From NCBI GenBank assembly GCA_016841365.1, contig JAENZI010000014.1, positions 1-64,000 of the forward strand: DNA of 64,000 nucleotides, written 5' to 3'. This document shows positions 57,014 through 59,074 of this stretch, piece after piece. The stretch comes from Anaerolineaceae bacterium (lineage in GTDB: Bacteria; Chloroflexota; Anaerolineae; Anaerolineales; Anaerolineaceae). The stretch's first letter is position 1; each line of letters begins with the position of its first letter. Under the pieces are notes generated by a model. The model was given only the letters and a program-made list of their open reading frames with translations, did not search any database and was not told where the DNA came from. The position numbers were made by a program, and so were the translations under genes.

Positions 57014-58660
57014 TTAGACCTGATTGATCGTTACAAAGATGAACGGATTGCGTTTTGTCTCTTGATAGAGATAGGACTTCACAGACCGCAGGACTTCGTT
57101 GTAAAGATTGCCGTTTGATTTGTCAACGGTTTGTTGGATCTGGCTGTTAAGGCCATCCATGATTGGGTCTAACTCAGCGGGGAGCATGAAACCGCGTGTG
57201 AGAATCTCGGGCTTGCTCTTGAGATGGCCGTTATCTTTGCTGACAACAACGTTGACAACCATGATGCCGTCCTGGCCAAGCGATTCCCGTTCCTGGACAA
57301 TGCTTCTGTCCACGCTTCCCACGCCGCTGCCATCCACAAAGATGTAGCCGCCCGGGATGCGTTCGCGCAGCTGCAGTTCGCCATCCACAAATTCAATGAC
57401 CTGACCGTTTTCAACAACGGCGATCTTGTCTTTGGGCATGCCGACTTCTTCTGCCAGCCTTGCGTGCTGTTTTAGCATACGTAACTCACCATGCATGGGG
57501 ATGAGGTGCTGCGGCCGCACCAGGTGCAGGAGCAATTTCATCTCTTCCTGGCTGGCATGGCCTGATACGTGGACGGGTGCGATGGATTCGTAAACCACTT
57601 CGGCGCCTCTGCGGAAGAGGTTGTTGATCGTGCGGTAGACGGATTCTTCATTGCCGGGGATGGTGTGGGATGAGAGCACGATCGTGTCACTTTCGCGCAG
57701 ATCGAATTTCCGGTTGGTGCCGCTGGCAAGCCGACCCATAATCGAACGCGGTTCGCCTTGGGAACCAGTCGCCATCAGAACGACCTGGTTGTCGGGCATG
57801 GATAGCGATTTTTCTAAAGAGATCACCAGGCGTTCAGGGAAGTCTACATAGCCCAATTCCCGCGCCATATTCATATTGTCCACCATGCTTCTGCCGGTGA
57901 AGGCGATCTTGCGTCCATGCCGCTCGGCAGCATTAGCCACCTGCTGCATGCGGGAGATCAGCGAAGCGAACGTGGCGACTAAGATACGGCCTTCTGCTTT
58001 CTCAAACACCTCATCTAATGCGTCGTCAATCACACGCTCAGATTGTGTCCAGCCTGGCTCTGTGGCATTGGTCGAATCGGCCAATAATGCCATCACGCCG
58101 CGTTCAGCAAATTCTGCCAGTTTGGCGTAATCTGTTGGCCAGTTGTCGACCGGTGTGTGGTCAAATTTGTAATCGCCTGTGTGCACCACCAACCCGGCGG
58201 GCGAATCAATGCCCAAGCCGACGGCATCCGGGATCGAGTGGCAAACGTGGAAAAAGTCCACAGTGAACGATCCGATTTGTACACGATCGCCGGCTTTGAT
58301 GGTGTGCAGGTCTGCCTTGTGGGTCAGCCCGTAACGATTCAGCTTGACTTCTACCAGACCACGGGTCAGTTTCGTGGCATAAATCGGCGCGTTGATTTCC
58401 TCCAGAATATGCTGGATGGCGCCGATATGGTCTTCGTGCCCGTGGGTAAAAATGATCCCGCGCACACGGTGTTTTTTATCTTTGAGATAGTCTTCATAAT
58501 CGGGGATGATGTAATCAATCCCAATCATATCGTTTTCGGGGAACATGATGCCCGCATCGACCATGAGAATATCATTCCCATATTCGTAAAGGGTCATGTT
58601 TTTCCCAACCTCGCCGAGGCCCCCGATTGGGACAATTCGTAATATTTTTTTGTCAGTCAT
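57014..58660 (-). CDS. rnj: Ribonuclease J
   Basis: VPIGGLGEVGKNMTLYEYG, GIIFTHGHEDHIGAI, HTGDYKFDHTPVD, HVSGHASQEEMKLLL. Confidence 0.95.
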   Translation of the reverse strand: MTDKKILRIVPIGGLGEVGKNMTLYEYGNDILMVDAGIMFPENDMIGIDYIIPDYEDYLKDKKHRVRGIIFTHGHEDHIGAIQHILEEINAPIYATKLTRGLVEVKLNRYGLTHKADLHTIKAGDRVQIGSFTVDFFHVCHSIPDAVGLGIDSPAGLVVHTGDYKFDHTPVDNWPTDYAKLAEFAERGVMALLADSTNATEPGWTQSERVIDDALDEVFEKAEGRILVATFASLISRMQQVANAAERHGRKIAFTGRSMVDNMNMARELGYVDFPERLVISLEKSLSMPDNQVVLMATGSQGEPRSIMGRLASGTNRKFDLRESDTIVLSSHTIPGNEESVYRTINNLFRRGAEVVYESIAPVHVSGHASQEEMKLLLHLVRPQHLIPMHGELRMLKQHARLAEEVGMPKDKIAVVENGQVIEFVDGELQLRERIPGGYIFVDGSGVGSVDRSIVQERESLGQDGIMVVNVVVSKDNGHLKSKPEILTRGFMLPAELDPIMDGLNSQIQQTVDKSNGNLYNEVLRSVKSYLYQETKRNPFIFVTINQV

Positions 58661-58794
58661 TTGTTTCTTTGTTTCCTTCCGTACGCGTACGTACTGTCTA
58701 TAATTTCTTGTTCAATTTTCATAAAAATTTTTAAAATGGGTTGTTCCCATTTGAGGTCAATGTCGTTTGAGTGATTGTATCACTTGTTTAATTA

Positions 58795-58908
58795 AAAACG
58801 CCCTCCGGCATCAGGCCGGTCAGGGCGAAGTGCTGCTTATATAAGTCAGTCAAATAATGCCAAATCTTACCAATGGCCGTTTCCGGCCTCAAACCTGTGT
58901 CTTACCAG
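58795..58908 (-). ncRNA. Candidate independent small RNA or attenuated leader upstream of the RNase J gene
   Basis: Minus-strand TTGACT-N17-TACAAT (58915-58943), GGCCG-GAAA-CGGCC hairpin, terminator CGCCCTGACCGGCCTGATGCCGGAGGGCGTTTTT; no obvious ORF. Confidence 0.6.
58796..58827 (-). terminator. Intrinsic terminator
   Basis: CGCCCTGACCGGC-CTGAT-GCCGGAGGGCG-TTTTT on the minus strand. Confidence 0.85.
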
Positions 58909-59074
58909 TAAAGGATTGTAGCATGCGGGTTGAGTTAAGTCAATCAAAGGGAAAAGCGTTAACGATTAATTAATACGGGGGCAATTAACAGCCATCAGGA
59001 GTATATTAGCGTCAAGTTTTTGATAAAAGGGCTTAAATTTCGCAAATTAGTGTGCTATAATATGAGCCTGAAAT

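Follow-up and report, generated by a model that had tools for sequence, protein, structure and literature searches.

In the 64,000-nucleotide stretch of DNA analysed here (the window), from a Chloroflexota-type bacterium, the gene for RNase J, which is the 5′-to-3′ RNA-decay enzyme of these cells, has a strong intrinsic terminator in front of it on the minus strand, and between that terminator and an extended −10 promoter further upstream lie a small hairpin and a spacer, all within positions 58943-58794. The question posed by this arrangement is whether it yields a free-standing small RNA (sRNA) or constitutes a leader that controls rnj. The preliminary description had reported a TTGACT-N17-TACAAT promoter, a GGCCG/CGGCC hairpin and a terminator here, and each is present on the minus strand at the positions it gave (Table 1). 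Transcription is expected to start near 58908, and 134 nt separate the terminator from rnj in the window. The neighbour on the other side of the leader is a plus-strand tRNA gene (judged by eye to be tRNA-Lys, with a TTT-type anticodon); because it and rnj are divergent, the leader transcript cannot come from the adjacent gene upstream.

Table 1. Features of the rnj leader region, in window coordinates.
Feature	Position	Strand	Remarks
Promoter P1, −35 box TTGACT	58938..58943	-	From the sequence; TTGAC invariant in 14 genus members
P1 extended −10, TGCTACAAT	58915..58923	-	TACAAT at 58920-58915, after a 17-nt spacer with TG; same form recurs before rnj across the order
Proposed antiterminator strand (hairpin 1 5′ arm and bases just before it)	58884..58903	-	Order-level co-evolution with the terminator
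Hairpin 1, GGCCG-GAAA-CGGCC	58875..58888	-	Of 5 pairs, 4 show compensatory changes in the genus; proposed anti-antiterminator
Spacer, genus-level motif GGUAAGAUUUUGGCAUUAUUGACUGA...ACAGCAGUACUUC	58828..58874	-	Without stable fold
Intrinsic terminator, CGCCCU-GA-CCGGC-CUGAU-GCCGG-AGGGCG-UUUUU	58794..58827	-	Stem 58827-58799, T-run 58798-58794; same place across the order
Second conserved hairpin, AAAUGGG-AACAA-CCCAUUU, between terminator and rnj	58734..58752	-	Genus only
rnj, RNase J	57014..58660	-	ATG at 58660; TIGR00649 match of 577.7 bits (cut-off 400)

Considered singly, promoter and terminator matches are near chance in the window, occurring about as often as in shuffled sequences. The combination of the two was scored with fixed criteria (a promoter score of at least 11.5 and, 50-240 nt downstream, a terminator of at most −11 kcal/mol), using the window genes and rny as gene controls and about 90 related genomes for comparison. 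Only one of the 43 genes in the window has the combination, namely rnj (0/42 for the others). Across the order, 53 of 86 genomes carry it upstream of rnj, among them 41 of the 72 outside the genus; it is absent from all 86 shuffled rnj upstream regions and from the region before rny in genus members (0/14). These strict criteria are not satisfied before rnj in the other 33 genomes of the order. The 114-nt leader also folds better than its dinucleotide shuffles (z = −2.09). By this comparison with about 90 related genomes the leader is real and conserved, and both the sequence and the comparison place a promoter upstream, and an intrinsic terminator in the interval from start site to gene, the arrangement of an attenuator. 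No sequence similarity of the leader was found beyond the genus, so that the case for homology across the order is one of position and anatomy. Five loci in other orders of the class (L131, L142, L144, L145 and L146) have by eye a similar rnj promoter and terminator, of unrelated sequence, and many rnj genes there have no such pair by eye.

Within the genus the structure can be followed directly. When 14 leaders are aligned across their length, hairpin 1 and the terminator together comprise 16 pairs with 92.4% of cells paired, eight of the 16 pairs have changes on both sides, a number reached in none of 500 shuffles, and pairing drops to 37-48% in shifted controls. RNAalifold recovers the same two helices without prior input. 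The stability of hairpin 1 is only modest (mean z −0.7 to −0.8). Covariation upstream of rnj in relatives had been proposed as a check in the preliminary description, and both hairpins are indeed kept in the genus by compensatory changes. Two finer points of that description fared less well: the hairpin does have a GAAA loop in the window but a GNRA loop is not retained among relatives, and the GGUAAGA repeat flanking it has the sequence described but is not conserved and is only weakly above chance in the window. In two genus members (G005, locus L011, and G014, locus L014) the terminator is weakened and hairpin 1 looks decayed; judged from their sequences, these versions could be natural constitutive variants.

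The distribution of the element and its distance from rnj bear on whether it is a leader. A covariance model of the leader (R1) has one match per genome in the 14 genus genomes, each before rnj, and no credible copy away from it (one match, E 0.82); as these genomes also supplied the sequences from which the model was built, what is informative is that no further copies turn up. The distance from the terminator to the start of the rnj match varies among relatives. About ten genomes have a gap of 24-42 nt, too short a stretch to hold an intervening promoter, so that rnj must there be read through the terminator. Most genus members have a gap of 112-188 nt, and there is no conserved promoter in it among the 14 members; a second promoter was considered there and set aside, the TTG of its candidate −35 box being lost in 5 of the 14. 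Because short gaps force read-through and no gap promoter is conserved in the genus, we favour an attenuator over a primary role as an sRNA.

A free-standing trans-acting sRNA, with rnj served by a promoter of its own within the 134-nt gap, is nonetheless a coherent alternative: the terminator is strong, most genus gaps are long, the source genome (G000) carries TGATACAAT directly after the terminator, and a terminated product must accumulate unless its decay is fast. Yet the element never occurs away from rnj in the R1 search, about ten relatives have the short gap, and the gap promoter fails the conservation just described, and we consider this alternative unlikely. Of the two possibilities offered by the preliminary description, sRNA or attenuated leader, it is thus the leader that is supported, and the sRNA as primary role that is unlikely; the terminated RNA of ∼115 nt would be a by-product of attenuation, although it could have further roles. 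We think it likely that the region from 58943 to 58794 is a promoter and attenuator leader of rnj with a switch at hairpin 1, and the leader probably sets the amount of RNase J made.

Attenuation by such a leader calls for an alternative pairing. Each leader's 5′ part is able to pair with its own terminator hairpin, and whether this goes beyond base composition was examined by comparing, among 35 lineages, the pairing energies of each 5′ part with its own terminator and with swapped ones after removing row and column effects. This swap test with controls was used because pairing measured against shuffled 5′ parts is moderate alone (mean z −1.0). The first 50 nt pair better with their own terminator than with swapped terminators (z about −3.8), z is about the same with 40 or 60 nt, and it is −3.5 after the GC interaction is removed. 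The signal is confined to nucleotides 12-34 after the −10 box, which correspond to the hairpin 1 5′ arm and the bases preceding it. Two controls, the DNA just upstream of the promoter (z −0.4) and same-sense similarity (z −1.0), are near zero or small, and reversed sequence keeps part of the signal (z −2.0), as is expected in part from near-symmetric hairpins, such that the effect should be read as what exceeds −2.0. This co-evolution supports, from sequence comparison, a putative mutually exclusive antiterminator at the level of the order. Long pairings are apparent in clear cases, such as ACCGGCCA with UGGCCGGU in L074 and GUCUGA with UCAGAC in L110. A constrained fold of the source genome's leader pairs CUGGUA and CAGGUU with the terminator loop, at −30.2 kcal/mol versus −36.6 kcal/mol for the terminated form. 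The antiterminator helix drawn in this way shows no covariation in the genus (70.7% paired versus 70.1% in shuffles); the exact antiterminator pairing in the source genome is a prediction only.

These elements suggest a simple scheme. RNA polymerase would start near 58908, hairpin 1 would fold first and sequester its 5′ arm, and the terminator hairpin would then fold, such that most transcripts would stop near 58794 as an RNA of ∼115 nt. Were hairpin 1 opened or blocked, its 5′ arm would pair with the terminator hairpin, the terminator would fail, and rnj would be transcribed; hairpin 1 is accordingly the proposed anti-antiterminator. Comparison shows a conserved promoter and terminator anatomy before rnj, both hairpins, forced read-through in some relatives and a 5′ arm that co-evolves with the terminator; that there is a switch, and which way it works, we infer.

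As to the signal, our guess is a protein that binds hairpin 1, and RNase J is the first candidate, which would produce negative feedback on its own gene. It is the obvious one because RNase genes often regulate themselves: E. coli rne, pnp and rnc do so through leaders at the level of mRNA decay (PMC3997798), and B. subtilis rny regulates its own mRNA, also at mRNA decay (PMC10303841). By analogy, RNase J feedback on the rnj leader is plausible, and the specific proposal that RNase J, or its RNA substrate load, acts on nascent hairpin 1 to set read-through, and so autoregulates by attenuation, is a tentative one that we hold possible though doubtful. The same precedents (PMC3997798, PMC10303841) lend themselves to a scheme in which binding or cleavage of the leader by RNase J or RNase Y sets rnj mRNA decay, in the manner of E. 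coli rne, with the terminator acting as a constant brake and no switch. RNase Y is present in the genus, in which no RNase E/G scores above the cut-off. The AAUGGG hairpin in the gap, which is fixed in sequence and shared at rnj alone, resembles a protein site and also favours this scheme, which however leaves the co-evolution of the terminator with the 5′ arm unexplained; we regard it as quite unlikely. A leader-peptide attenuator, in which the position of a ribosome selects between the hairpins, finds some encouragement in a short open frame in the leader of some genus members, but start codon, frame and peptide all lack conservation in the genus, where no conserved short frame with regulatory codons was found, and this we judge very improbable indeed. 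No Rfam match points to a riboswitch or T-box as the sensor of the signal.

The gap hairpin itself has a nearly fixed stem sequence in the genus, with a loop of 4-5 nt and GACYUC preceding it, and its sequence suggests that it may be a further protein site. Sites of the form AAUGGG-N-CCCAUU number 0-4 per genome besides the rnj copy, and a role as a regulon operator was discarded, no shared place other than the rnj leader being seen in the genus. Closer to the gene, five loci representing part of the genus (L009, L010, L015, L016 and L017) have a hairpin, GUACAUAGGAGUAC, just before rnj with the Shine-Dalgarno sequence in its loop, resembling a CsrA site; control of this ribosome-site hairpin by CsrA was dismissed, CsrA being absent from the 16 genus genomes. 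In the source genome a palindrome, GTACGTACGCGTAC, adjoins the rnj ribosome site (58681-58695, minus strand).

Searches of the leader against Rfam at gathering and permissive thresholds gave tRNA and chance matches only, with rne, rne-II, Actino-pnp, T-box, Chloroflexi-1 and all other families failing to reach the gathering threshold on the leader; the rnj loci of 13 relatives gave tRNA only. The Rfam/Infernal scan suggested in the preliminary description thus assigns the leader to no existing family, and a literature search found neither an rnj attenuator nor an Anaerolineae leader described. We conclude that the leader is an undescribed family, probably of attenuators, which themselves are of a known kind.

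E. coli rne regulates itself through decay of its own mRNA, and we know of no description of it that includes a terminator switch; rne acts on mRNA decay, whereas the anatomy of the rnj leader is that of transcription attenuation. The rne and rne-II leaders of Proteobacteria (RF01756 being rne-II) are likewise structured leaders of a main RNA-decay enzyme, but the enzyme and the phylum differ and the rnj leader does not match them in Rfam. The Actino-pnp leader (RF01688) similarly precedes an RNA-decay gene and is structured and conserved within a single bacterial group, although the gene is pnp rather than rnj, the group is Actinomycetales, and here too there is no Rfam match for the rnj leader. 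Also close in design are the intrinsic attenuators of greA, rnk and rpsL, whose signal is unassigned (Naville and Gautheret 2010, PMC2965389); they too have a leader terminator before a housekeeping gene, with an alternative antiterminator pairing of the kind proposed here, but differ from the rnj leader in sequence and target gene; the main text of that study names neither Chloroflexi nor any ribonuclease.

With the rnj leader, a poorly studied phylum gains a further, undescribed RNA family, and since the leader is kept across the order and its anatomy lends itself to tests in a reporter or in vitro, control of the amount of RNase J becomes directly accessible. Autoregulation of RNase J through attenuation would set the leader apart from known attenuators and, if true, would differ as a form of feedback from the control by mRNA decay that is known for RNase E, PNPase, RNase III and RNase Y.
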